Source: an uncultured Oscillospiraceae bacterium (GTDB lineage Bacteria > Bacillota > Clostridia > Oscillospirales > Oscillospiraceae). From it: DNA of 64,000 nucleotides. A model generated the notes under the pieces. The model was not told the origin of the DNA. It saw only the letters and a program-made list of their open reading frames with translations, and ran no database searches. The stretch is taken from NCBI GenBank assembly GCA_947588605.1, contig CANPYK010000002.1, positions 1 through 64,000 of the forward strand, given 5' to 3'. A program made the translations under genes and the position numbers. How positions within the stretch are numbered: the stretch's first letter is position 1; every line of letters begins with the position of its first letter. This document shows, one piece after another, positions 18,958-35,903 of the stretch.

Positions 18958-18986
18958 TTGACAACGGGGGAAATTTCGCTTATAAT
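18958..18986 (+). promoter_or_regulatory. Perfect consensus promoter of the DUF177-rpmF operon
   Basis: TTGACA (18958-18963), exactly 17-nt spacer, TATAAT (18981-18986), 31 nt before the start codon. A strong promoter fits ribosomal-protein expression. Confidence 0.8.
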
Positions 18987-23030: not shown

Positions 23031-24359
23031 ATGAGACCCTTAGTTGCCATTGTGGGCAGGCCCAATGTGGGGAAGAGCCTTTTGTTTAACAGGCTGGCGG
23101 GGGAGCGGCTCAGCATTGTGGAGGACACGCCCGGCGTCACGCGGGACAGGCTGTACGCCAAGTGCGAGTGGTCCGGGCGGACCTTCGACATCGTGGACAC
23201 CGGCGGCATCGAGCCCAGTACCGACAGCGAAATTTTGACCTTCATGCGGGAGCAGGCGCTCATCGCCATCGACGCGGCGGACGTCATCATCTTCGTGTGC
23301 GACATCCGCTCCGGCGTCACCGCCTCGGACCACGAGGTGGCGGACATGCTCCTGCGCTCCGGCAAGCCCGTGGTGCTGGCGGTGAACAAGATGGACTCCA
23401 CCGGCCCCGTGGACCCGGACATCTACGAGTTCTACGGCCTGGGGCTGGGCGATCCCATCGCCCTCTCCGCCCTCCACGGCCACGGGACGGGGGACATTCT
23501 GGACGAGTGCCTGAGACACTTCCCGCCCAAGGAGGACGAGGACGCCGACGCGGACGCGGTGAAGCTCGCGTTCATCGGCAAGCCCAACGTGGGCAAGAGC
23601 TCCATCGTCAACAAAATTTTGGGCGAGGAGCGGGTCATCGTCTCTGACCTCGCCGGCACCACCCGGGACGCGGTGGACACGCCCTTTGAGAACAAGTACG
23701 GCAAATTCGTGCTCATCGACACCGCCGGAATGCGCCGGAAGTCCAAGGTGGAGGACCGGGTGGAAAAGTTCTCCGTCATGCGCGCGCAGCTGGCCATCGA
23801 GCGCTCCGACGTGTGCCTCATCATGCTGGACGCCAGGGACGGCGTCACCGAGCAGGACACCAAGGTGGCGGGCATGGCCCACGAGGCGGGCAGGGCCAGC
23901 ATCGTTTTAGTCAACAAGTGGGACCTTGTGGAGAAGGACGGCAAGACCATGGAGAAGCTGCGTGCCGACATCCGGCGGGACCTCTCCTTCATGCCCTACG
24001 CCCCCATCCTCTTCGTCTCGGCCCTCACCGGCCAGCGGGTGGAGAAAATTTTCGAGCTTGCCAACTCCGTGAACGAGCAGTCTGGCCGCCGGGTCACCAC
24101 GGGGCTTTTGAACAACGTCCTGGCCGACGCCCAGGCCCGGGTCCAGCCGCCCTCCGACAAGGGCAAGCGGCTCAAGATCTTCTACATGACCCAGGTCGGC
24201 GTCCGGCCCCCCACCTTCGTCATCTTCTGCAACGACGCCGAGCTTTTCCACTTCTCCTATCAGAGATACCTGGAAAACCAGTTCCGCGCCGCCTTCGGTT
24301 TCGCCGGCACCCCCATCCGCCTCCTCATCCGCGAGCGCGGCGACCGGGAGGACGGCTGA
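23031..24359 (+). CDS. der: Ribosome-biogenesis GTPase Der (EngA)
   Basis: A 442-residue protein with two tandem GTPase domains: the first has GRPNVGKSLLFNRL and DTGGIE with NKMD; the second has GKPNVGKSSIVNKI, DTAGMRRK and NKWD. A C-terminal KH-like domain (about 355-435) binds rRNA. Der is essential for 50S subunit assembly. AAGGAGG lies 6 nt before the ATG. It sits downstream of an IS-containing island, so it may depend on a promoter inside that island. Confidence 0.97.
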   Translation: MRPLVAIVGRPNVGKSLLFNRLAGERLSIVEDTPGVTRDRLYAKCEWSGRTFDIVDTGGIEPSTDSEILTFMREQALIAIDAADVIIFVCDIRSGVTASDHEVADMLLRSGKPVVLAVNKMDSTGPVDPDIYEFYGLGLGDPIALSALHGHGTGDILDECLRHFPPKEDEDADADAVKLAFIGKPNVGKSSIVNKILGEERVIVSDLAGTTRDAVDTPFENKYGKFVLIDTAGMRRKSKVEDRVEKFSVMRAQLAIERSDVCLIMLDARDGVTEQDTKVAGMAHEAGRASIVLVNKWDLVEKDGKTMEKLRADIRRDLSFMPYAPILFVSALTGQRVEKIFELANSVNEQSGRRVTTGLLNNVLADAQARVQPPSDKGKRLKIFYMTQVGVRPPTFVIFCNDAELFHFSYQRYLENQFRAAFGFAGTPIRLLIRERGDREDG

Positions 24360-24361
24360 AA

Positions 24362-24404
24362 TCTGTTGTCATACCGGCCTTCCATGAGAAGGCCATGGTG
24401 AAAA
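24362..24404 (+). pseudogene. Short duplicated fragment of a GT2 glycosyltransferase N-terminus
   Basis: These 43 bases encode SVVIPAFHEKAMVK and match 27645-27687, the start of the GT2 gene (SAVIPAFNEEAMVE), at about 35 of 43 positions without gaps. It is probably a remnant of a related gene or a partial duplication. It overlaps no functional feature except the beginning of the next terminator. Confidence 0.5.
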
Positions 24405-24405
24405 G

Positions 24406-24438
24406 GCTCCCCGGCTCCCGCGGCCGGGGAGCTTTTTT
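24406..24438 (+). terminator. Intrinsic terminator after der
   Basis: A 10-bp stem GCTCCCCGGC / GCCGGGGAGC (24406-24415, 24423-24432) followed by six T. Confidence 0.85.
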
Positions 24439-24488
24439 GCAAATCACCGCAAAGTATGAAGCTATATCCGCAAGTCGTTCCGAAGCTG

Positions 24489-24517
24489 TTGAAGGATCCT
24501 GTCCGGTCCGTTATAAT
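24489..24517 (+). promoter_or_regulatory. Predicted promoter of the LytTR regulator
   Basis: TTGAAG (24489-24494), 17-nt spacer, TATAAT (24512-24517), 33 nt before the start codon. Confidence 0.65.
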
Positions 24518-24549
24518 GAATGCCGGAAGAAATTGATGGGAAGGAGGAC

Positions 24550-25008
24550 ATGCCGGTGAAAATCAGACTGGCCGTCAGCAAAGAGCGGTATCCGGAATTG
24601 AGAGCCGCGCTTGAAAGCCGTGGGATCGAGATAGACGATACCGCCGGTTTAATTTTGAGCGAAGCCGCATCCTATGTTGACAGTCTTATTTTACGGGACA
24701 GAGAAACCGGCGAAAGGGTCGTTATGCCCGTTGATGAAATCATTTTTATTGAAACCTACGGTCACAGTGTTGAAGTCCATTCCGTGAAAGGATCATACCA
24801 GTCCTTGGACCGCTTATATAAGATCTACAGCCTTCTGGATCAAAGCAAGTTTATTCGTATCAGCAACTCTGTGATCATTGCGAAAAACAAAGTTTTGAAG
24901 ATCACGCCAACGCTTTCCATGAAGTTTATTTTGACCATGATAAACGGAGAAAAGGTCGATGTAACGAGAAACTATTATTACATCTTCAAGGAAGCTTTCG
25001 GTATATAG
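24550..25008 (+). CDS. LytTR-family DNA-binding regulator without a receiver domain
   Basis: A 152-residue protein. The C-terminal 95 residues are a LytTR DNA-binding domain (VDEIIFIETYGHSVEVHSVK, FIRISNSVIIAKNKVLKITP). The N-terminal 55 residues are not a phospho-acceptor receiver domain, so it is not a classical response regulator. Stand-alone LytTR proteins are usually paired with a membrane protein that holds them inactive; the next gene, 11 nt downstream, encodes a membrane protein and is a likely partner. ATG at 24550 follows AAGGAGG. It is less GC-rich than most neighbours. Confidence 0.85.
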   Translation: MPVKIRLAVSKERYPELRAALESRGIEIDDTAGLILSEAASYVDSLILRDRETGERVVMPVDEIIFIETYGHSVEVHSVKGSYQSLDRLYKIYSLLDQSKFIRISNSVIIAKNKVLKITPTLSMKFILTMINGEKVDVTRNYYYIFKEAFGI

Positions 25009-25019
25009 GAGGCGTACAT

Positions 25020-25526
25020 ATGGGTTTTCCGATATTTTTTATTTTCGCGTTCTTTTTCGCGGCGCTGCTGATCGGCACGATCGTCGTTTACCTGCAGGTA
25101 TATAAAAGCCATATCAACAGAGCCCTGCGTCACGAAACAAAGCCCACGACGATGGCGCCGCCATACAAGGTCGCTCTTGTCCTGACGATCGCGGTCTTAA
25201 CGGTCGGCGTATTCGTGAGCTTTCTGGCCGGCTTTAAGGCCGCCAATGACCGCTTTATGACCGCGAGCATGACGTTTGATGTGCATTCTTTTTACGCTGA
25301 AGTAAAAGAAGTAGACAAAAATACGATAACTGTCGATGGGATCGCGCTCAACGAGGAGAAGTATCGGGGAGAGCTTCAGTATGAGGTTTATGACAGTGTT
25401 GGCATCCTTTGGAAGGATGGACCGATCGGCCTTTCAGATCTGGAGCCAGGGGATCTTGTATGCGTGACGCTTGTGACCGGCGGAGGAGATGTCACCGAGC
25501 TTTTCAAAATACAGCTCCTGAGATGA
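25020..25526 (+). CDS. Membrane protein with a C-terminal soluble domain, putative LytTR partner
   Basis: A 168-residue protein with two membrane helices (about 3-25 and 55-75). A roughly 85-residue domain follows (DVHSFYAEVKEVDKNTITVD ... GDLVCVTLVTGGGDVTELFK) that looks like a small beta-barrel. I do not recognise the family; it is not the usual DUF3021 partner. Short spacing to the LytTR gene suggests one operon and a sensing or anti-activator role, by inference. Confidence 0.65.
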   Translation: MGFPIFFIFAFFFAALLIGTIVVYLQVYKSHINRALRHETKPTTMAPPYKVALVLTIAVLTVGVFVSFLAGFKAANDRFMTASMTFDVHSFYAEVKEVDKNTITVDGIALNEEKYRGELQYEVYDSVGILWKDGPIGLSDLEPGDLVCVTLVTGGGDVTELFKIQLLR

Positions 25527-25573
25527 GCGGACGGAAAATGAAAGCCTGCCGTTCTTTGCCGGGCATTGGGCAG

Positions 25574-25602
25574 TTGACAGGGACTTTTTGGCGTGCTATA
25601 AT
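25574..25602 (+). promoter_or_regulatory. Perfect consensus promoter of the surface-polymer operon
   Basis: TTGACA (25574-25579), exactly 17-nt spacer, TATAAT (25597-25602), 36 nt before the LtaS-like start. No strong terminator is seen until 33635, so all seven genes are likely to be transcribed from here. Confidence 0.8.
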
Positions 25603-25637
25603 GCCGAAAACCGAATGTTTTTTGAGGCGATCATCCT

Positions 25638-27611
25638 ATGAACAGGTTAGCAACTATGAAAGAAACGCTCCGTACAGGGCCCTGGCAGCGGCGGCTGCGC
25701 GTCGCCCGGTATGTTTTCGTGTGCGCGTCCTTCTTCCTGCTGGACGTGTGGCTCAGAGTGGCCACCAGGGACATCGGAAAGCACAGCCCCCTCTATATCC
25801 CCGCCAATGTCTTCTCCGTCTTCTGGTCCATGATCCTGGCCTCCGTCCCCCTGGCGATGCCCAAAAGGACGGCGGGGCGCGTCGTTTACGCGGTGCTCTA
25901 CTACGCCGCCGCCGTCTACGTGGTGGTACAGTACGGGTATTACCGGCTCATGGGCTCCTTCCTCTATTTCAGCGACCTCCTCTACGCCGGGGAGGGGAGC
26001 GGGTATCTTGGCTATGTGGACAAGATTTTGAACGCGGGCTTCGTGCTCCAGGTCCTGCTGCTCTTCGCCGTGGGCCTTGCGGGCATTGCCGTTTTCCCCG
26101 CGCCGGAGCGGGAGCGGGTGTCCCTGCGGACGCTGGGCAAGGCGCTCCTGGCCGGGGTGCTGGGCGTGGCGCTGACGCCGCTCCTTTACGGCACCTATAA
26201 CGAGACGAAGTGGAACGCCTACAAGTCCCCGGCCTTCCAGTACCGGAAGTTCATCAACGCCACGGCGGACCTGGAGCTCACCGGCACCTACCAGTTCGTC
26301 TTCAAAAACGCGGTGATGGCGGTACAGGACACCGGCGTCTTCACCGACGAAGCGGAGGCGGACGCCTCCGTACAGAAGGTCGAGGAGTTCTTCGCCGCCC
26401 GTCCCGCCCATGAGGACAACGACATGACCGGCCTGTTCGCCGGCCGGAACGTCATCGTGGTGATGATGGAGAGCATGGACGACTGGCTCATCACCGAAGA
26501 CGACACCCCCACCCTCTACCGCCTGCGGGAGGAGGGCATCGACTTTACCCATATGTACACCCCGGAGTACGCCAGCGGCTACACCTTCAACACGGAGTTT
26601 GCCGCCCACACCGGCGTCTACCCCTACACCAACTCCAACGCCGCCTACGGCCTTCCCGGCAACGATTTCCCCTACGCCCTGCCCCGGCTTTTCGCCGACG
26701 GGGCATACCGGGTCAACTCCTACCACCGCAGCGAGGCGGATTTCTACAACCGGGGCATGATGCACGCGGCCTTCGGCTACGAGCTCTACCACAGCTATTT
26801 TGACTATACCATCGACGGCGAGGACGCCGTGAGCCAGGACAACGACACCTTCCTCACCCGGTGCCCGGAGCTTTGGGAGGACATGTTCGCAGCCCAGCCC
26901 TTCATGGACTTCGTCATCACCTACAGCGGCCACCTGCCCTACGATGACCTGACGGAGCCGCTGACCCAGGAGGCCCTGGCCCTCCATCCGGAGTACGCCC
27001 GGGAGCCCCTGACGGAGCTTTCCGTGTTGAAGGCCAAGATCCGGCTGACGGACGATATGTTCGCCGAGCTCCTCGCCCATCTTGAGGAGAAGGGCCTTTT
27101 GGAGAACACCGTTATCGTGGCCTTCGGCGACCACTACTGCTATGGCTTCTCGGACGAGGAATACCTGCAAAGCGCCTCCGAGGCCGCGGGGAACCCCATC
27201 CTCCAGCGCACGCCCTTCTTCATCTGGAGCGCGGACGTGCAGCCCCTGAAGATGGAGAAGACCATCCAGACCATTGACATCATGCCCACCCTGGCCAACC
27301 TCTTTGGCCTTCCCGTGCCCCGGGAGGTCATGGGGCGGGACGCCTTCGACCCGGCCTATGAAGGCTGGGCCGTCTTCCCGGACGGCACCTGGATCCACAA
27401 CGGTACCTACGTCGCCGCCGGTCAGGTCCAGTTGAACGGGGACGGCCTTTCTGACGAGGACATCGAGCGCATGAACAACTACGTCTACACAAGCTACGAG
27501 ATCAACGATCTCATTCTGGATACCGACTACTACCGCGCCGCCCTGGCAATGGCCCAGGAGCCCACGGACGCTGTCGGGGACGGATTTGACGGCGGCCTTT
27601 CCAACGACTAA
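25638..27611 (+). CDS. LTA synthase-family phosphoglycerol transferase (sulfatase fold)
   Basis: A 657-residue membrane enzyme with about five N-terminal helices (24-40, 58-75, 84-104, 133-156, 170-188) and an extracellular alkaline-phosphatase/sulfatase-fold domain. Metal and catalytic features are in place: Glu278 in VMMESMDDW, Thr316 in SGYTFNTEF (aligned with the catalytic Thr of LtaS) and FGDHYCYG near 500. Known members move glycerol-phosphate units from phosphatidylglycerol onto glycolipid or glycan. It heads an operon of polymer-decorating functions, so it probably builds or decorates a surface glycopolymer. The weak ribosome-binding site (GAGGCGAT) leaves a second ATG at 25656 possible. 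Confidence 0.88.
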   Translation: MNRLATMKETLRTGPWQRRLRVARYVFVCASFFLLDVWLRVATRDIGKHSPLYIPANVFSVFWSMILASVPLAMPKRTAGRVVYAVLYYAAAVYVVVQYGYYRLMGSFLYFSDLLYAGEGSGYLGYVDKILNAGFVLQVLLLFAVGLAGIAVFPAPERERVSLRTLGKALLAGVLGVALTPLLYGTYNETKWNAYKSPAFQYRKFINATADLELTGTYQFVFKNAVMAVQDTGVFTDEAEADASVQKVEEFFAARPAHEDNDMTGLFAGRNVIVVMMESMDDWLITEDDTPTLYRLREEGIDFTHMYTPEYASGYTFNTEFAAHTGVYPYTNSNAAYGLPGNDFPYALPRLFADGAYRVNSYHRSEADFYNRGMMHAAFGYELYHSYFDYTIDGEDAVSQDNDTFLTRCPELWEDMFAAQPFMDFVITYSGHLPYDDLTEPLTQEALALHPEYAREPLTELSVLKAKIRLTDDMFAELLAHLEEKGLLENTVIVAFGDHYCYGFSDEEYLQSASEAAGNPILQRTPFFIWSADVQPLKMEKTIQTIDIMPTLANLFGLPVPREVMGRDAFDPAYEGWAVFPDGTWIHNGTYVAAGQVQLNGDGLSDEDIERMNNYVYTSYEINDLILDTDYYRAALAMAQEPTDAVGDGFDGGLSND

Positions 27612-27630
27612 GAGAAAAGAAGGCCAGACA

Positions 27631-28548
27631 ATGGATAAGCTCCTTTCTGCGGTGATCCCCGCCTTCAATGAGGAGGCCATGGTGGAAAAAACCGCCGTGA
27701 CCGTGGCCGGGGTCCTCCGGGACGCCGGGATCCCCTATGAACTCATTTTCGTGGACGACGGCTCCCGGGACGGCACCTGGGAGGCGATTTTGCGCGCCCA
27801 CGAGGCGGACAAGCACGTGCGCGGCGTCTCCTTCTCCCGGAATTTCGGGAAGGACCGGGCCATTTTCGCGGGGCTCAGCCGGGCGAAAGGCGACTGCGCG
27901 GCCGTGCTGGACTGCGACCTTCAGCACCCGCCCCAGGTTCTCCCCACCATGACGGCCCTCTGGGAGCAGGGCTTTGAGCTGGTGGAGGGCGTCAAGCGCG
28001 ACAGGGGAGAGGAGTCCGGCTTCCACCGCCTGTGCGCCGGGGCCTTTTACGCCGTGATCTCGAAGCTTGCCAAGCTCGACATGAAGCGCTCCTCAGACTT
28101 CAAGCTCCTGGACCGCAAGGTGGTGGACACGCTTTTAGCCCTGCCGGAGGAGGACGTCTTCTTCCGGGGCCTCACGGCCTTCGTGGGCTTCAAAAAGACT
28201 GAGGTGGAGTTCGACGTGGCGGAGCGCACGGCGGGGCAGTCCAAGTGGTCCTTCCGGTCCCTGGCCCGTTACGCCGTGTCCTCGGTGACGGCTTTCTCCG
28301 CCGCCCCCATGCAGCTTGCCATGATTTTCGGCGCGCTCTTCGCGCTCATCGCCGTCGTCACCGGCATCCTCTACGCCATCGTGGGCTATGACGCCTCCGG
28401 GTGGCTGGTGTTCCTGGGCGTGACGGCCCTTCTGGCCCTGGCCTGTGTGCTTTTGTGCCTGGGCGTGATGGGCTATTACCTGGGCCGCCTTTTCCGCCAG
28501 AGTATGGGCCGGCCCCGGTACATCATTGCGAGGGAGTGCGGTGAGTGA
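27631..28548 (+). CDS. GT2 glycosyltransferase, polyprenyl-phosphate type (GtrB/DPM1-like)
   Basis: A 305-residue enzyme: a GT-A domain (VIPAFNEEAMVEK, FVDDGSRDGTW, AVLDCDLQHPP metal motif, AGQSKWSFRSL acceptor loop) followed by two membrane helices (about 229-254 and 264-288). This type moves a sugar from a nucleotide to polyprenyl phosphate on the cytoplasmic face. The next gene encodes GtrA, the putative flippase partner, which supports the role. ATG at 27631 follows AGAAGG; the frame is open upstream, but no better start is seen. Confidence 0.92.
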   Translation: MDKLLSAVIPAFNEEAMVEKTAVTVAGVLRDAGIPYELIFVDDGSRDGTWEAILRAHEADKHVRGVSFSRNFGKDRAIFAGLSRAKGDCAAVLDCDLQHPPQVLPTMTALWEQGFELVEGVKRDRGEESGFHRLCAGAFYAVISKLAKLDMKRSSDFKLLDRKVVDTLLALPEEDVFFRGLTAFVGFKKTEVEFDVAERTAGQSKWSFRSLARYAVSSVTAFSAAPMQLAMIFGALFALIAVVTGILYAIVGYDASGWLVFLGVTALLALACVLLCLGVMGYYLGRLFRQSMGRPRYIIARECGE

Positions 28549-28993
28549 CATGGCGGACAAGCTCAAGGCGTTCATCGCCAAATTCTTTGACAAGACCTTC
28601 TGGAAATTCATCCTGGTGGGCATCGTCAACACCCTCTTCGGCACGGCGATCATGTTCGGCTTTTATAACCTCCTGCACCTGAGCTACTGGGTGTCCTCCG
28701 CCGCCAACTACTTCTTCGGGAGCATCCTGAGCTACTTCCTCAATAAGCGCTTCACCTTCCAAAATAAGGAGAAGGGCGCGGGGACGGCGGTGCGCTTCGC
28801 GCTGGAGATCAGCGTCTGCTACCTCATCGCCTACGGCGCGGCCAAGCCCCTCACGCGCCTCGTCCTCTCCGGCGCCTCCAAAACGGTGCGGGAGAACATC
28901 GCCATGCTGGTAGGCATGGGCCTTTTCGTGATCCTCAACTACATCGGCCAGCGCTTCTTCGCCTTCGCGGAGAAGAGGGCGAAGGACAAATAA
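28541..28993 (+). CDS. GtrA-family membrane protein (putative polyprenyl-phosphate-sugar flippase)
   Basis: A 150-residue four-helix protein with GtrA features (FWKFILVGIVNTLFGTAIMF, NYFFGSILSYFLNKRFTF, ILNYIGQRFFAF). With the GT2 enzyme it would supply lipid-linked sugar to the outer face for glycosylating a polymer. The start is uncertain: GTG at 28541 has AGGGAG 5 nt upstream, while ATG at 28550 is 13 nt away; both overlap or abut the GT2 stop. Confidence 0.9.
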   Translation: MSDMADKLKAFIAKFFDKTFWKFILVGIVNTLFGTAIMFGFYNLLHLSYWVSSAANYFFGSILSYFLNKRFTFQNKEKGAGTAVRFALEISVCYLIAYGAAKPLTRLVLSGASKTVRENIAMLVGMGLFVILNYIGQRFFAFAEKRAKDK

Positions 28994-29015
28994 CACGCGT
29001 GAAAGGAAAATGACT

Positions 29016-30791
29016 ATGAATCCCGCTCTCCAGTGGCCGTTCGACCCCCAACTCATTCTGAAAAAACGAAGAAGCCTCCGCCGGGAGCTTTTGGCCGACG
29101 GGACCCCGCGCCTCCATAAGCGCGTGGCCGTGCTGGGCGGGTCCACCACCCATGACGTCACGGCCACGCTGGAGCTTTTTCTGCTGGACGCGGGCATCGA
29201 GCCGGAGTTTTACGAGTCGGAGTTCGGCCTATATTACGAGGACGCCATGTTCGGCGAGGAGCTGGAGAGCTTCCGGCCGGAGATCGTCTATATCCACACC
29301 TCCCTTCGAAACATCCCTGTTTTCCCCGCGCCCGGGGACAGCGAGGAGGCCGTAGAGGAGAAGCTCCAGGCGGTGTACGGACGCTTCGAGGCCATGTGGC
29401 TCAGGTTAGGGGAGCGGTTTGCCGCGCCTGTCATCCAGAATAACTTCGAGATGCCCTTTTACCGGCTTCTCGGCAACCGGGACGCCTGGGACCACCGTGG
29501 ACGGGTGAGCTTCGTCACACGGCTCAACGAGATGTTCGCCCGCTACGCCAGGAGCCACACCGGCTTTTACCTCAACGACATCAACTACCTCAGCGCCGAT
29601 TACGGCCTGTCCCGCTGGTCCGACCCGCTTTACTGGCACATGTACAAGTACTGCCTTTGCCTGGACGCTATCCCCGCGCTGGCCTATAACGTGGCGAACA
29701 TCGTCAAGTCTGTCTACGGGAAAAAGAAGAAGGCCCTGGTGCTGGACCTGGACAACACCCTGTGGGGCGGCGTGGTGGGCGACGACGGGGTAGAGGGCAT
29801 CGAGATCGGCCACGAGACAAGCATGGGCCAGGTGTACAGCGAGTTCCAACGGTATGTGAAGGAGCTGGCGGGCTACGGCGTCATGCTGAACGTGGACTCG
29901 AAAAACGACGAGGCCAACGCCAGGGCAGGCCTTGAGCACCCGGAGGGGACGCTGCGGCCGGAGGACTTCATCGTCCTCAAGGCCAACTGGGAGCCCAAGG
30001 ACCTGAATTTTCAGGAGATCGCCCGCGAGCTCAACATCCTGCCGGAGAGTATGGTCTTCGTGGACGACAACCCGGCGGAGCGGGCCATCGTCACGGGACA
30101 GCTCCCTGATGTGGCCGCCCCGGCGCTGGACGCCCCGGAGCATTACATCGCCGCCATCGACAAAAACGGGTACTTCGAGGTCACGGAGCTTTCCGTGGAC
30201 GATCTGACGAGGAACGACATGTACAAGGCAAACCTCCAACGCGCGGCGCTGGAGAAGAGCTTTGCCAGCTATACCGACTACCTCTTGTCGCTGGACATGC
30301 GGGCCAAGATCGGCCCCTTCGAGCCGGTGTACATCCCGCGTATCGCGCAGCTGACCAACAAATCCAACCAGTTCAACCTGACCACCCGGCGCTATACGGA
30401 GAGCGAGATGCGCGCCGTCGCCGCTGACCCACAATATCTCACGCTCTACGGGAAGCTTACGGACCGGTTCGGGGATAACGGCGTCATCACCGTGGTCCTC
30501 GGACGCCTGACGGGGGAGACAGTAGAGATCGAGCTTTGGCTCATGAGCTGCCGGGTGCTCAAGCGCAACATGGAGCACGCCATGCTGGATGCCCTGGCGG
30601 AGAGCGCCCGCCGGGCCGGCGCCCATACGCTGCGGGGATATTATTACAAGACCGCCAAAAACGCCATGGTCCGGGATTTTTACCGGGATTTTGGCTTCAC
30701 CCTCGTCTCCCAAAACGGGGAGGACACGGTGTGGGAGCTGGACATCACGGACTACACGGCGAAAAATCATGTGATAAGGGTGGAGAATTGA
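29016..30791 (+). CDS. FkbH/HAD-IIIC protein with SGNH-like N-terminus and GNAT-like C-terminus
   Basis: A 591-residue protein. The N-terminal 230 residues resemble the SGNH-like domain of FkbH proteins (VAVLGGSTTHDVTATLE). The HAD-IIIC core has the nucleophile Asp244 and Asp246 in LVLDLDNTLWGG, plus VFVDDNPAERAIV. The C-terminal 150 residues look like a GNAT fold (LWLMSCRVLKRNMEHAMLD). In polyketide pathways FkbH takes phosphoglycerate from 1,3-bisphosphoglycerate, dephosphorylates it and loads glyceryl onto an acyl carrier protein. An acyl carrier protein gene follows 3 nt downstream, so the same chemistry is likely here, in place of DltA. ATG at 29016 is preferred for spacing over 29010. 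Confidence 0.88.
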   Translation: MNPALQWPFDPQLILKKRRSLRRELLADGTPRLHKRVAVLGGSTTHDVTATLELFLLDAGIEPEFYESEFGLYYEDAMFGEELESFRPEIVYIHTSLRNIPVFPAPGDSEEAVEEKLQAVYGRFEAMWLRLGERFAAPVIQNNFEMPFYRLLGNRDAWDHRGRVSFVTRLNEMFARYARSHTGFYLNDINYLSADYGLSRWSDPLYWHMYKYCLCLDAIPALAYNVANIVKSVYGKKKKALVLDLDNTLWGGVVGDDGVEGIEIGHETSMGQVYSEFQRYVKELAGYGVMLNVDSKNDEANARAGLEHPEGTLRPEDFIVLKANWEPKDLNFQEIARELNILPESMVFVDDNPAERAIVTGQLPDVAAPALDAPEHYIAAIDKNGYFEVTELSVDDLTRNDMYKANLQRAALEKSFASYTDYLLSLDMRAKIGPFEPVYIPRIAQLTNKSNQFNLTTRRYTESEMRAVAADPQYLTLYGKLTDRFGDNGVITVVLGRLTGETVEIELWLMSCRVLKRNMEHAMLDALAESARRAGAHTLRGYYYKTAKNAMVRDFYRDFGFTLVSQNGEDTVWELDITDYTAKNHVIRVEN

Positions 30792-30794
30792 CCT

Positions 30795-31034
30795 ATGGAC
30801 AGAAACGAGATCTTTGATCGCCTCAACGTCGTCTTCCGGGACGTCTTTGACGACAGCACCATCACCGTGGGGGAGGACACCACCGCCGCCGATATCGACG
30901 GCTGGGATTCTCTCATGCACATCACGCTGATCTCCGCGGTGGAGGACGAATTTGGCGTCAGCTTCAATATGCGGGACGTGGTAAAAATGAAGAACGTGGG
31001 AGACATGGCCGACCTCATAGAAAACGAGGCGTGA
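30795..31034 (+). CDS. Acyl carrier protein
   Basis: A 79-residue acidic carrier protein with the phosphopantetheine-attachment Ser39 in DGWDSLMHITLI. Helices are as in DltC or FAS-type ACPs (ISAVEDEFGVSFNMRDVVKM). Sitting between the FkbH-like loader and the MBOAT acyltransferase, it is expected to present a glyceryl-type thioester to the membrane enzyme, as DltC presents D-alanine. A phosphopantetheinyl transferase is not in the window. Confidence 0.93.
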   Translation: MDRNEIFDRLNVVFRDVFDDSTITVGEDTTAADIDGWDSLMHITLISAVEDEFGVSFNMRDVVKMKNVGDMADLIENEA

Positions 31035-31035
31035 C

Positions 31036-32619
31036 ATGCTGTTCACCTCCTTCCGCTTTCTTGTCTTTTTGCTGGCGCTTTTCGCCGGCTACTTCCTCCT
31101 GCCCAAAAGGGTCCGGTGGATGTGGCTCCTGTTGGGAAGCGCCTTCTTCTATCTGTGTACCGGCCTCAAATATTGCCTCTTCCTGCTGGCTTCCATCCTG
31201 TCGGCCTGGGCCTTCGGGCTTGCGTGCGGGAGGCTGGACCGGAGGGCGCGGGCCTATGACGCCGAGGAGCACAGCCGGGAGGAAAAGCGGGCGTTCCGTG
31301 CCGCCCTGGACAAAAAACGCAGGCTGGCCGCCGCGCTCGTCATCGTCTTCAACCTGGGCGTGCTGGCGGTCCTGAAGTACGCCGATTTCGTGCTGGCCAA
31401 CGTCGCCGCCGCCGTCCGGCTCTTCGTCCCCTCCTTCCGCATCCCTTCCCTGGGCCTTCTCCTGCCGCTGGGGATCTCCTTTTACACCTTCATGGCGGTG
31501 GGCTACTGCGTGGATGTGTACCGGGGCGTGACCGAGGCCGAGCGCGACCCCTTCAAGCTGGCGCTTTTCCTCTCCTTCTTCCCCCACATCACCCAGGGCC
31601 CCATCGACCGGTACGACGCCCTGTCCCCCCAGCTTTTCGAGGGCCACGGCTTCGATTTCGACCGTGTCCAACGGGGCCTTTGCCGGATGCTGTGGGGCTT
31701 TTTCCAGAAGCTCGTGGTGGCGGACAGGCTGGCCATTCTGGTGGATCACGTCTTCGACGCCCCCGGAAGCTTCAGCGGCCTTTACCTCGCCTTTGCCGTG
31801 GTGTGCTACGCCGTCCAGATCTACGCCGACTTCGCCGGGTACATGGACATCGCCCTGGGCGCGGGCCGCGTCCTGGGCATCGAGCTCGCGGAGAATTTTG
31901 ACGCGCCGTACCTGTCCTCCGGCATCCCGGAGTATTGGCGGCGGTGGCATATCACCCTGGGCGCCTGGTTCAGGGATTACCTCTTTTATCCCATCCAGCG
32001 CAGCGCCCCCATGAAAAAGCTGAACCGCGCCCTCCAAAAGCGCCGGAGCCGCGCCTTCGCCTCCCTGGTGACCACCTCCGCGGCCCTGGCGGTGGTGTGG
32101 TTCGCCACGGGCCTCTGGCACGGGGCCAGCTGGCATTATATCGCCTGGGGTGTCTATTACGGAGTCCTCATCATCCTCTCCACGTGGACGAAGCCCCTCG
32201 CCGACCGCGTTGTCGGGAAGCTGCGGATCGACCGGGGGACCTCCGGCTGGCGGATGTTTTGCGTGCTTCGGACCTTCGCTCTGGTGCTGGTGGGGTATGT
32301 CCTGTTCCGGGCGGCCAACGTGGCCCAAGCGGCGGAGATCTTTGGACGTATCGTCACCAGGTTCCTGCCCTCAAACAACGCCCCCGGCGTGTCCCTGGGG
32401 CTGGATATGGCCGACCTGAAGGCGGCGCTTTTGGGGACGGCGGTCATCTTCATCGCGGATATGCTCAAGTTCCACAAGGTGGACGTCTGGAAGCTCTTTC
32501 GCGGCCTGCCGCTGGTGATCCGATGGGCCGTTTTGTACGCCGCCATTGCCGCCGTACTGGTCTACGGCGTCTACGGACCGGATTACAACGCCGCGTCGTT
32601 CATCTATTTCCAGTTCTGA
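31036..32619 (+). CDS. MBOAT-family acyltransferase (DltB/AlgI-like)
   Basis: A 527-residue polytopic membrane protein with the MBOAT pattern: GISFYTFMAVGYCVDVYRG near 150, FFPHITQGPI near 185, SGIPEYWRRWHITLGAWFRD near 295-314 (His305) and the active-site His362 in FATGLWHGASWHYIAWG. Family members move acyl groups from an intracellular donor across the membrane to an outer acceptor. The carrier-protein gene before it and SGNH gene after it are the same pairing as DltC-DltB-DltD and AlgI-AlgJ/X. It starts 2 nt after the ACP stop codon. Confidence 0.93.
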   Translation: MLFTSFRFLVFLLALFAGYFLLPKRVRWMWLLLGSAFFYLCTGLKYCLFLLASILSAWAFGLACGRLDRRARAYDAEEHSREEKRAFRAALDKKRRLAAALVIVFNLGVLAVLKYADFVLANVAAAVRLFVPSFRIPSLGLLLPLGISFYTFMAVGYCVDVYRGVTEAERDPFKLALFLSFFPHITQGPIDRYDALSPQLFEGHGFDFDRVQRGLCRMLWGFFQKLVVADRLAILVDHVFDAPGSFSGLYLAFAVVCYAVQIYADFAGYMDIALGAGRVLGIELAENFDAPYLSSGIPEYWRRWHITLGAWFRDYLFYPIQRSAPMKKLNRALQKRRSRAFASLVTTSAALAVVWFATGLWHGASWHYIAWGVYYGVLIILSTWTKPLADRVVGKLRIDRGTSGWRMFCVLRTFALVLVGYVLFRAANVAQAAEIFGRIVTRFLPSNNAPGVSLGLDMADLKAALLGTAVIFIADMLKFHKVDVWKLFRGLPLVIRWAVLYAAIAAVLVYGVYGPDYNAASFIYFQF

Positions 32620-32631
32620 GGGGGTGGGCGT

Positions 32632-33630
32632 ATGAAAACAGTCAAAAGAGCGGTCAGCACCGTCTTGTTTCTCCTCATCCTCGCCCTTCTCGTCAGCGCC
32701 CTTACACAGATTCTGCGCGACAAGAACGAGGCGAACATCGTCTATCCGTTCTACGACGAGCCGAAGGACTCTCTGGACGTGGTGTTCGTGGGCTCCAGCT
32801 TCACCATGTGCGGGATGTACCCCATGGAGCTCTACGACCAATTTGGTATCGCCTCCTACGACTACGCCTCGTCGGCCCTGGTCTTCCCCCAGGCGTACTA
32901 CCAGACGGTGGAGGCCCTGAAGCGCCAGACCCCGAAGGTGCTGGTCATCGACGCCTCCGGCGCGGTCTACGCGGATAACAAGGTGGGCTCGAAGGAGTAC
33001 GTCCACGTCCAGTTGGACAACATGAAGTGGTCGTTGAACAAGCTCAGAGCCATTCAGGACCTCATCGAGGACCCGTCGGACAGGCTGGAGTATTATTTCC
33101 CCCTGCTCAAATTCCACACCCGCTGGAAGAACGTGACGGAGGAGGATTATAAGCCGATCACCGGCCCGTCCAAGGGTGCGTTCGTCAGCGACGCCGTCCT
33201 GGCCGATCCGACGGTCTACCCCACGGTCCCGGCGGAGGAGAAGGCGGCGCTGTCCCGGACGGCGGAGACGTACCTTCGAAAGATCCTGGACACCTGCCGG
33301 GAGGAGGGCGTCACGGTCCTGCTGGTGAACTACCCCACGCTGTCCAATGAGGACGACCAGAGAAAATATAACGCTGTGGCCGACATCGCCGGGGAATACG
33401 GCGTGGAGTACCTGAACCTCCTCCACGGCTTCGAGGAACTGGGCCTGGACCCGTACACGGATTTTCGGGACCAGTACCATCTCAACCGCAGCGGCGCCTT
33501 GAAGGTGACCGCGGCGCTGGGCGCGTATCTCAAGGAGCGCTACGACCTCCCGGACAGAAGGGAGGACCCGGACTACGCCCCCCGCTGGAACGCCGCGCTT
33601 TCCCTTTACCGGGAGACTTATCCGGACTAA
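32632..33630 (+). CDS. SGNH-type membrane-anchored protein (DltD/AlgJ-like role)
   Basis: A 332-residue protein with one N-terminal membrane helix (about 8-28) and an outer-face SGNH-like domain: VFVGSSFTMCG (Ser55/56 nucleophile region), a middle Asp (LVIDASGAV) and the C-terminal DQYHLNRSGA with its Asp/His pair. In dlt and alginate-acetylation systems such proteins pass the acyl group from the MBOAT protein to the polymer. Last gene of the operon. The acceptor polymer is unknown, but the LtaS-like, GT2 and GtrA genes suggest a polyol-phosphate or glycosylated envelope polymer. Confidence 0.83.
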   Translation: MKTVKRAVSTVLFLLILALLVSALTQILRDKNEANIVYPFYDEPKDSLDVVFVGSSFTMCGMYPMELYDQFGIASYDYASSALVFPQAYYQTVEALKRQTPKVLVIDASGAVYADNKVGSKEYVHVQLDNMKWSLNKLRAIQDLIEDPSDRLEYYFPLLKFHTRWKNVTEEDYKPITGPSKGAFVSDAVLADPTVYPTVPAEEKAALSRTAETYLRKILDTCREEGVTVLLVNYPTLSNEDDQRKYNAVADIAGEYGVEYLNLLHGFEELGLDPYTDFRDQYHLNRSGALKVTAALGAYLKERYDLPDRREDPDYAPRWNAALSLYRETYPD

Positions 33631-33662: not shown

Positions 33663-33680
33663 CGGCTTTTAAAGATTCAA

Positions 33681-33869
33681 TCACACCGCACGGGTGACCT
33701 TGCCGCTGCGGAGGCACCGTGTACAGACGTAAACGTGGCGGGGGGAGCCGTCGACCACGGCCTTGACACGTTTGACATTCGGTTTCCAGGTACGGTTGGA
33801 TCTTCTGTGGGAGTGGCTCACCTGAATACCAAATGAGACGCCCTTGCCGCAAAATTCACACTTTGCCAT
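33681..33869 (-). CDS. rpmB: 50S ribosomal protein L28
   Basis: A 62-residue basic protein with L28 features: MAKCEFCGKGVSFG, a basic SHRRSNRTWKPN segment and VCTRCLRSGKV. The cysteines form the zinc-binding (C+) version. ATG at 33869 follows AAGGAGG; longer open sequence upstream is not used. Confidence 0.95.
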   Translation of the reverse strand: MAKCEFCGKGVSFGIQVSHSHRRSNRTWKPNVKRVKAVVDGSPRHVYVCTRCLRSGKVTRAV

Positions 33870-33915
33870 CTGCTGCACCTCCTTGCATGAAAACTTTAGA
33901 TTCGCAAGCTTTGCT

Positions 33916-33944
33916 ATTATAGCAGAACTTATCGGAAAATGCAA
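33916..33944 (-). promoter_or_regulatory. Predicted promoter of rpmB
   Basis: Minus strand: TTGCAT (33944-33939), 17-nt spacer, TATAAT (33921-33916), about 45 nt before the start codon. Confidence 0.65.
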
Positions 33945-33989
33945 GAAAAATTTTTCGTTCCGAATAAAATATTTATATGCCCCAGGCTC

Positions 33990-34018
33990 TTGCAAAAGCG
34001 ACGGTTTTTAGATAAAAT
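33990..34018 (+). promoter_or_regulatory. Predicted promoter of the hprK-dnaE cluster
   Basis: TTGCAA (33990-33995), 17-nt spacer, TAAAAT (34013-34018), 38 nt before hprK. The promoters of rpmB and hprK are divergent. Confidence 0.65.
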
Positions 34019-34056
34019 AGGAACATGCTGTTAGTCAAATCGTCAAGGAGGAGCTT

Positions 34057-34998
34057 ATGGACACGGAACATGGGATCACATTGAAGGCGCTGGCCGAGCA
34101 GGTGGGGCTGGAGGTCTTGTACGCCTCCTCGGACTTTGCCTCCAAGCTCATCACCACCGCGGTCATCAACCGCCCGGGACTCCAGCTCACGGGCTTCTAC
34201 GCCAATTTCACCACGGAGCGGCTCCAGATCCTGGGCTGGAACGAGGACGCCTACCTCCAGCAGTTCTCCGAGGAGGAGCGCCGGGCCAAGCTCGACCGCC
34301 TCATGGCCAGCGGCGTGCCGGCCATCATCATCGCCCACGACGTGAACATCCCGGAGGGGACGCTGGACTCGGCCAAGGAGCATGACGTCACCATTCTCAA
34401 GTCCCACCGGGAGACCAGCGAGCTCATCATCGAGCTCACCACCAAGCTCAACAACGCCCTGGCCCCCACCATCATGCGCCACGGCGTCTTTCTGGAGGTC
34501 TACTCCGAGGGCGTGCTGATCTTGGGCGAGTCCGGCATGGGCAAATCGGAGACGGCCATCGAGCTCATCAAGCGCGGACATCACCTCATCTCCGACGACG
34601 CCGTCATCATCAAGAAGGTCAACTCCACCACCCTCACCGGCACGGCGCCGGACCTCATCCGCAACTACATCGAGCTGCGCGGCATCGGCGTGGTGGACGT
34701 GCGGCGCATCTTCGGCAACGGCGCGGTGAAGTGGAGCGAGAAGGTGGACCTGGTCATCAAGCTGGAGAACTGGAACGCGGAGAACAGCTACGACCGCATG
34801 GGGTCCGAGACGGACTTCATCGACATCCTGGGCGTCAAGGTGCCCTACATCGTGGTGCCCATCAGGCCCGGGCGCAACCTGGCCGTCATCATCGAGGTGG
34901 CCGCCATGAACAACCGGCAAAAGCGCATGGGCTACAACTCCGGCAAGGACTTTGCCGAGCAGCTGGACGACTATTTTGACAGCCTGGAGGCACAATGA
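34057..34998 (+). CDS. hprK: HPr kinase/phosphorylase
   Basis: A 313-residue enzyme. The C-terminal kinase domain has the P-loop GESGMGKSETAI near 157 and the HprK signature (LRGIGVVDVRRIFGNGAVK). It phosphorylates HPr at Ser46 and removes the phosphate, setting carbon catabolite repression in Gram-positive bacteria. It is the first gene of a tightly packed cluster; its stop overlaps the murB start (ATGA). Confidence 0.96.
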   Translation: MDTEHGITLKALAEQVGLEVLYASSDFASKLITTAVINRPGLQLTGFYANFTTERLQILGWNEDAYLQQFSEEERRAKLDRLMASGVPAIIIAHDVNIPEGTLDSAKEHDVTILKSHRETSELIIELTTKLNNALAPTIMRHGVFLEVYSEGVLILGESGMGKSETAIELIKRGHHLISDDAVIIKKVNSTTLTGTAPDLIRNYIELRGIGVVDVRRIFGNGAVKWSEKVDLVIKLENWNAENSYDRMGSETDFIDILGVKVPYIVVPIRPGRNLAVIIEVAAMNNRQKRMGYNSGKDFAEQLDDYFDSLEAQ

Positions 34999-35903
34999 AC
35001 GACGGACTTGACCGCCTGCTGGCGGACCTTCGGGGGGAATACCCGGAGACGGGCGTGACCCTGGGCGAGCCTATGAGCCGCCACACCACCTTTAAGATCG
35101 GCGGGCCTGTGCGGGCGCTTCTGGAGCCCAAGAGCATCGGGGCCTTCGTCTGGTGCGTCCGGGAGCTGGAGGGGCGGGAGCTGCCCTACTTTATCCTGGG
35201 CAACGGCTCCAACCTGCTGATTTCCGACGGCGGGCATAAGGAGGTCGCCCTCTCCACCGCGCGGCTCGACACCGTGCGCGTCAGCGGCGACAGCCTCATC
35301 TGCGGCGCGGGCGTGGTGCTCTCGCGCCTTGCCAACGCCGCCCTCAGCGAGGGGCTCACCGGCCTTGAGTTCGCCCACGGCATCCCCGGCACGCTGGGCG
35401 GCGGCGTCACCATGAACGCCGGGGCCTACGGCGGGGAGCTTGCCGACGTGGTGGAGTCCGTCACCTTCGTGGAGCGGGACGGCCAGGTGCGGGTGGTCCC
35501 CAAGAGCGAGTGCGCCTTCGGTTACCGCTCCTCCCGCTTCCAAAAGGGCGGCGCGATCCTCTCCGCCACCCTGCGTCTGCGCCCCGGCGACCCCAAGGCG
35601 ATCAGGGCCAAAATGGAGGAGCTCATGGAGGCGCGTCGGGAAAAGCAGCCCCTCAACTATCCCTCCGCCGGGAGCACCTTCAAGCGTCCGGAGGGGGACT
35701 ACGCCTCCCGCCTCATCGATGCCTGCGGCCTGAAGGGCCTGCAGGTGGGCGGCGCGCAGGTCTCGGAAAAGCACGCGGGCTTTATCGTGAACCTGGGGAA
35801 CGCCACCTTCTCCGACGTCTACGCCCTCATGGCCATGGTGGTGACGAAGGTCTACAAGGAGACCGGCGTCCGCCTGGAGCCGGAGGTAAAGATCATCGTT
35901 TAA
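34995..35903 (+). CDS. murB: UDP-N-acetylenolpyruvoylglucosamine reductase
   Basis: A 302-residue FAD enzyme of cytoplasmic peptidoglycan precursor synthesis: N-terminal THTTFKIGGPV-type motif (RHTTFKIGGPVRAL), FAD-binding LGNGSNLLISDGG, catalytic YRSSRF region, and the type-II C-terminus (NYPSAGSTFKRPEGDYASRL, LEPEVKIIV). It makes UDP-MurNAc using NADPH. Translationally coupled to hprK. Confidence 0.96.
   Translation: MNDGLDRLLADLRGEYPETGVTLGEPMSRHTTFKIGGPVRALLEPKSIGAFVWCVRELEGRELPYFILGNGSNLLISDGGHKEVALSTARLDTVRVSGDSLICGAGVVLSRLANAALSEGLTGLEFAHGIPGTLGGGVTMNAGAYGGELADVVESVTFVERDGQVRVVPKSECAFGYRSSRFQKGGAILSATLRLRPGDPKAIRAKMEELMEARREKQPLNYPSAGSTFKRPEGDYASRLIDACGLKGLQVGGAQVSEKHAGFIVNLGNATFSDVYALMAMVVTKVYKETGVRLEPEVKIIV

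Follow-up and report, generated by a model that had tools for sequence, protein, structure and literature searches.

A dlt-like gene cassette with an FkbH-type loader in an Oscillospiraceae genome and its probable role in surface acylation

We analysed a stretch of 64,000 nucleotides from an uncultured Oscillospiraceae bacterium (assembly GCA_947588605.1, contig CANPYK010000002.1, positions 1 to 64,000), hereafter the window. It contains an operon that encodes an LtaS-like membrane enzyme, a GT2 glycosyltransferase, a GtrA-family protein, an FkbH-type loader, an acyl carrier protein (ACP), a DltB-like MBOAT acyltransferase and an SGNH protein (Table 1). The last four genes (29010-33630) are the conserved unit, and they very probably acylate an extracytoplasmic target from a carrier loaded by FkbH. 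On balance we favour a dlt-like relay that is charged by FkbH and transfers a glyceryl group, with the acceptor left open. A previous sequence-only reading of this DNA had proposed such a relay, and the families, motifs and linkage presented here support it. That reading had treated the seven genes as one system. The operon is indeed tight, with seven open reading frames (ORFs) on the + strand and intergenic gaps of ≤19 bp, but the portable unit comprises only four genes, and the LtaS-like, GT2 and GtrA genes are a lineage-specific neighbour. The genes lie where they had been placed, their families agree in profile searches, and the numbering of ACP Ser39 and of MBOAT His305 and His362 was correct.

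The gathering of the seven genes is not due to chance, because the same seven are present at a second locus (L019, from a genome record whose nucleotide sequence is 95% identical across the locus) and the four-gene core FkbH-ACP-MBOAT-SGNH was found again at no fewer than six further loci in other positions (L026, L032, L034, L037, L167 and L168). We surveyed 80 related loci from clostridial genomes, 77 of them with at least 600 bp 3' of FkbH and 35 with 5 kb on either side; in some GC-rich loci the genes were placed by homology matches and not by quick ORF calls. An ACP gene was found directly 3' of FkbH in 68 of the 77 loci, and a same-strand MBOAT gene was located within 6 kb in 30 of the 35 fully flanked loci. 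Outside the species, the closest FkbH homologues (71-74% identity; L020-L025, L036) are encoded without ACP or MBOAT neighbours. However, in all seven of these genomes a relative of the ACP adjoins an MBOAT gene elsewhere (L220-L226), in a cluster in which no FkbH was detected. These apparent exceptions are therefore the same set split in two, and the lone copies do not count as evidence against the use of ACP with MBOAT. The linkage in cis (30/35) and in trans (7/7) also rules out a chance co-location of the cassette genes. Moreover, it ties the ACP to MBOAT instead of to fatty-acid or polyketide genes, the association that had been named beforehand as refuting. Tailoring enzymes are absent from the standalone four-gene cassettes beside housekeeping genes (L026, L167, L168), which makes it probable that the group is transferred in the form in which FkbH loaded it. 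The isolate Kineothrix alysoides carries FkbH-ACP-MBOAT (L046). The trait is patchy, as FkbH was present in only 10 of the 150 genomes that were sampled from the family.

The phylogeny of the MBOAT proteins agrees with this linkage. In a tree of 92 sequences, made by a quick method and with long branches present, the linkage labels were strongly grouped (8 changes versus 30 in shuffles). The window MBOAT fell within a clade of 8 rows that contains FkbH-ACP-MBOAT-SGNH cassettes only (Shimodaira-Hasegawa-like approximate likelihood ratio test, SH-aLRT, 98). This clade is nested in one of 44 rows, mostly carrier-linked MBOATs (31 linked to FkbH, 11 to an adenylation domain and 2 to neither; SH-aLRT 99). 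A separate clade comprises 24 MBOATs that are linked to FkbH in a different gene order, which points to recruitment on more than one occasion.

Table 1. Features of the operon, of the exchanged segment and of related systems in the same genome (G000)
Feature	Position	Strand	Details
Promoter TTGACA-17-TATAAT	25574..25602	+	~36 bp 5' of the LtaS-like start codon
LtaS-like alkaline-phosphatase-superfamily membrane enzyme	25638..27611	+	657 aa; PF00884, 95 bits; five transmembrane (TM)-like segments
GT2 glycosyltransferase, polyprenyl-phosphate-sugar type	27631..28548	+	PF00535, 93 bits; C-terminal TM segments
GtrA-family membrane protein	28544..28993	+	PF04138, 76 bits
Exchanged segment	28979..33662	+	FkbH-ACP-MBOAT-SGNH in the window; GtrII and second GtrA in sister genome G180 (L163)
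FkbH-type loader	29010..30791	+	593 aa; SGNH-like N-terminal domain, HAD-IIIC (DLDNT 246-250), GNAT-like domain with Cys514
ACP	30795..31034	+	79 aa; PF00550, 33.5 bits; phosphopantetheine site Ser39 of DGWDSL, codon 30909-30911
DltB-like MBOAT acyltransferase	31036..32619	+	527 aa; His305 and His362; PF03062, 42 bits; TIGR04091 (DltB)
C-terminal hexapeptide FIYFQF, acyl-shuttle motif FxYxxF	32599..32616	+	End of MBOAT; Tyr predicted to hold the acyl group transiently
SGNH acyltransferase	32632..33630	+	GDSL/SGNH, weak, 25 bits; one N-terminal TM-like segment; GSS nucleophile motif
DltA-type operon, contig C12	L099:6245-10689		Adenylation loader (L099:6245-7771), carrier, MBOAT ending FIYNQF, SGNH
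Second FkbH system, contig C28	L003:6425-11053		MBOAT ending FLYFNF, SGNH-like/polysaccharide deacetylase fusion, ACP, short FkbH

The FkbH assignment of the loader held in a profile search, where TIGR01686 gave 281.3 bits (cut-off 146.65 bits) and TIGR01681 gave 62 bits. The model of the protein (predicted local distance difference test, pLDDT, 90.3) has the SGNH-like N-terminal, HAD and GNAT-like C-terminal domains expected for FkbH; its HAD domain matched 3slr (TMt 0.89) and its C-terminal domain gave GNAT matches. The residues D246, D248, T250, K298, D352, D353 and C514 are conserved. Cys514 (codon 30549-30551) is the sole invariant Cys of the window FkbH among 91 sequences, a set that includes a short copy from elsewhere in the same genome. 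In the model this residue is located where a GNAT-like strand ends and for this reason is likely to be the acyl-thioester site. A Cys in front of the SKN motif was dropped as a candidate acyl site, the position being Asp in the window FkbH and Val in the copy on contig C28. Homologues of FkbH transfer the glyceryl group of 1,3-bisphosphoglycerate to discrete ACPs (PMC3625739, PMC7489565, PMC8949500). The ACP of the operon matched generic carrier models only, and the DltC equivalog was not matched in the profile search.

The downstream proteins resemble those of the membrane relay in the Dlt pathway. The only significant sequence relatives of the MBOAT protein in the PDB were DltB structures (6bug/8jem, E=3e-33). 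Its C-terminal FxYxxF motif, which the sequence-only reading had not mentioned, is present at the C-terminus of 88 of 96 MBOAT homologues. In PatA/PatB, the Tyr of this hexapeptide ferries the acyl group from MBOAT to the SGNH protein, and the Dlt pathway obtains this motif from DltX (PMC12148441). The SGNH assignment is secured by a model with an SGNH fold (pLDDT 91.5) together with the conserved GSS, Asp277 and His283; Asn285 is conserved as well in the alignment of homologues. Foldseek matches of this model in the PDB include PatB, DltD and generic SGNH esterases. The esterases ranked at the top, so that neither DltD nor PatB was singled out, and no DltD family match was obtained for the protein in family profile searches.

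From these parts a relay can be proposed, in which the nature of the acyl group, the direction in which it moves and the acceptor are inferred. According to the chemistry of its family, FkbH would take glyceryl from 1,3-bisphosphoglycerate, its HAD domain would strip the remaining phosphate, and the glyceryl would pass through the Cys514 thioester to the phosphopantetheine arm of ACP Ser39. By analogy with DltC-DltB, MBOAT would then acylate the Tyr of its own FIYFQF motif from glyceryl-ACP, the motif standing in for DltX. Finally, as in DltD and PatB, the Ser of the membrane-anchored SGNH protein would accept the acyl group and hand it on to a hydroxyl group on a surface polymer. That the transferred group is glyceryl we consider probable. 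The idea that the modification changes the charge of the polymer, also put forward in the sequence-only reading, is doubtful: D-alanine is cationic whereas a glyceryl ester is neutral, and the charge argument therefore does not follow.

The acceptor would most likely be the polymer or glycan served by the LtaS-like, GT2 and GtrA proteins, because the cassette follows their genes at the point where a sister genome (G180) keeps GtrII; an LtaS-linked polymer in particular has, in our estimate, a little less than an even chance of being the acceptor. The exchange at this point, another feature added to the previous description of the locus, was observed by synteny. G180 is collinear with the window on both sides (92% over 24001-28978 and 97% over 33663-35000), and where the window has the 4.7-kb cassette it has 2.1 kb that encode a further GtrA together with GtrII (PF14264, 200 bits). 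In genome searches FkbH was not found in G180 and GtrII was not found in the window's genome, which has one YfhO homologue elsewhere. Next to the same LtaS-like gene, one surface decoration seems to have been swapped for another. As the more distant relatives G020 and G168 have different membrane proteins (DUF6056, DUF6020) following LtaS-GT2, the cassette-free state may perhaps be the older one. The composition gives no foreign signal (GC content 61.7% in the cassette versus 62.8% in LtaS-GtrA, with a slightly lower GC at third codon positions in the FkbH and ACP genes), so recent foreign DNA is not supported by composition and it is synteny that documents the exchange.

The LtaS-like protein fits an architecture of five TM segments and a sulfatase fold with a catalytic Thr and metal ligands. 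It matched LtaP (4uop) with E=7e-22 and LtaS chains down to 3e-17, and in the alignment with 4uop its Glu278, Thr316, Asp498, His499, Arg372 and His432 coincide; the catalytic Thr and the metal ligands (Glu278, Thr316, Asp498, His499) are kept.

Several results weigh against this reading or parts of it, and some of them open the way to other explanations. Two equivalog models were not reached: the MBOAT scored 173.7 bits with the DltB model TIGR04091 (cut-off 375), which makes it homologous but under the cut-off, and the LtaS-like protein scored 115.9 bits with NF053595 (cut-off 970). In addition, the window FkbH is only distantly related to the polyketide FkbHs that have been characterised, with FkbH_N (PF21211) at 26.7 bits just below the cut-off of 27, and glyceryl cannot be separated from another acyl phosphate by sequence. 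Some FkbH domains perform lactyl-type loading. The same relay could thus run on a different small acyl phosphate, for example lactyl- or another hydroxyacyl-phosphate, and the surface ester would then not be glyceryl; we judge this unlikely, given that the characterised FkbH homologues cited above use 1,3-bisphosphoglycerate and that the phosphate-removing HAD motifs are invariant in FkbH homologues. A further complication is found at L178:5257-10106, where a short-chain dehydrogenase (SDR) lies between ACP and MBOAT, possibly a variant in which the SDR alters the loaded acyl group. A dTDP-rhamnose reductase-like gene is also seen near this cluster.

The argument for the acceptor rests on one locus, because LtaS, GT2 and GtrA are joined to the cassette only in genomes of the window's species and the standalone cassettes lack them. 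These cassettes beside housekeeping genes, the many FkbH-ACP-MBOAT sets in polysaccharide clusters (L046, L047, L076, L178) and the GT2 protein, whose nearest NCBIfam models are ArnC and PgfS (the latter presumably a protein-glycosylation enzyme), would all fit a capsule-like polysaccharide, a glycolipid or a protein-bound glycan as the acceptor, with the LtaS adjacency incidental. Such an acceptor is a serious possibility, if not the expected one, and it would alter the acceptor step only; it is countered by the tight operon that the cassette forms with LtaS/GT2/GtrA and by its taking the place of GtrII at exactly that point. On a more radical view, FkbH-ACP would supply glyceryl inside the cell, either for a secreted metabolite or for cytoplasmic sugar modification, and MBOAT and SGNH would work alone from acetyl-CoA. 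FkbH-ACP pairs without MBOAT close by do exist (L028, L088, L166, L179-L182), a point against a fixed relay, and in the suomilide/banyaside cluster FkbH feeds a non-ribosomal peptide synthetase (NRPS) while MBOAT acylates a sugar (PMC13122637). Nevertheless, we regard this view as very improbable: no polyketide or NRPS genes occur in the window operon or in the cassettes inspected, ACP is linked to MBOAT in cis and in trans, and in the tree the window MBOAT groups with carrier-linked and not with unlinked MBOATs.

We then compared the glyceryl relay with known systems. Like dltABCD with DltX, the cassette combines a loader, a carrier, a DltB-like MBOAT, an SGNH protein and an acyl-Tyr hexapeptide, but its loader is an FkbH/HAD-IIIC protein and not the adenylating DltA, its shuttle motif is fused to the C-terminus of MBOAT and not carried by a separate DltX, the expected group is a neutral hydroxyacyl and not a cationic amino acid, and activation is expected from a glycolytic acyl phosphate and not from ATP. 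It shares with PatA/PatB and related MBOAT-SGNH O-acetyltransferases an MBOAT with C-terminal FxYxxF and a conserved His, and a membrane-anchored SGNH partner. However, those systems use acetyl-CoA and no carrier protein, whereas the cassette encodes a dedicated ACP and loader. An FkbH enzyme with a separate adjoining ACP is also the arrangement for glyceryl-ACP formation by FkbH, OzmB and Tmn16 in polyketide and tetronate pathways, while the cassette has no polyketide synthase, FabH-like or dehydrogenase genes and its ACP goes with MBOAT. The upstream LtaS-like, GT2 and GtrA genes recall lipoteichoic acid (LTA) synthesis by LtaS and three-component glycosylation (CsbB-GtcA-YfhO or GtrB-GtrA-GtrII), and in the sister genome GtrII belongs to this operon, whereas no GtrII was found in the window operon or in its genome. 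In Clostridioides difficile the LTA repeat unit includes D-glyceric acid, as a glycosylated residue and not as an ester, which is context and not support (PMC10642750).

The sequence-only reading had known of no described system with this set. Likewise, we found no description in the open-access literature of FkbH joined with a carrier-MBOAT-SGNH envelope system, and an earlier description elsewhere is possible. The nearest case is the suomilide/banyaside cluster, in which FkbH and MBOAT are both present; in that cluster the FkbH protein serves an NRPS as its loader and the target of MBOAT is a soluble glycopeptide, and the part of the account consulted reports neither an SGNH partner nor an ACP-MBOAT link (PMC13122637). 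We tentatively suggest, as less than an even prospect, that gut Clostridia have a widespread and undescribed surface modification, in which a carrier-MBOAT-SGNH relay charged by 1,3-bisphosphoglycerate, with no ATP-dependent activation, places glyceryl esters on a teichoic-acid-like polymer and can trade places with a glycosyltransferase at a given locus. If so, D-alanylation and acetylation would be joined by a third kind of envelope acylation by MBOAT-SGNH pairs, one that is common among Lachnospiraceae and Oscillospiraceae of the gut. In place of the cation supplied by D-alanine, the polymer would bear a neutral ester rich in hydroxyls, the surface would be linked to flux through glycolysis, and a large set of MBOAT operons so far without explanation would be accounted for. 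Modules for acylation and for glycosylation can share the same chromosomal slot, and the four-gene cassette is portable between genomic contexts.

The genome contains other acylation systems. No AMP-binding domain was found among the seven operon products in profile searches, and FkbH occupies DltA's place; the previous statement that FkbH acts instead of DltA is thus true for the operon. It is not true for the organism, where a replacement of DltA is ruled out by the DltA-type operon on contig C12, and a second FkbH-ACP-MBOAT system is present on contig C28. The C12 operon has the gene order of the cassette (loader, carrier, MBOAT, SGNH), as if the loader types were interchangeable on one chassis. 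Its SGNH protein has GDC and not GSS at the nucleophile position, as in the relatives L140-L144, which suggests that a Cys replaces Ser as the nucleophile. The short FkbH of the C28 system consists of HAD and GNAT only, and just upstream of this system lie an Sfp-type phosphopantetheinyl transferase and a GT2-GtrA fusion. A different FkbH-ACP pair of the same genus, with no MBOAT nearby, stands beside a small membrane protein that by eye resembles multidrug exporters (L166, L179, L180, L181 and L182).

No terminator-like match was detected on the + strand between the operon genes, those found falling within coding sequence. The perfect promoter reported previously is present upstream of the LtaS-like gene (0 expected by shuffling), and another perfect TTGACA-17-TATAAT promoter lies at 18958-18986 of the window, also on the + strand.

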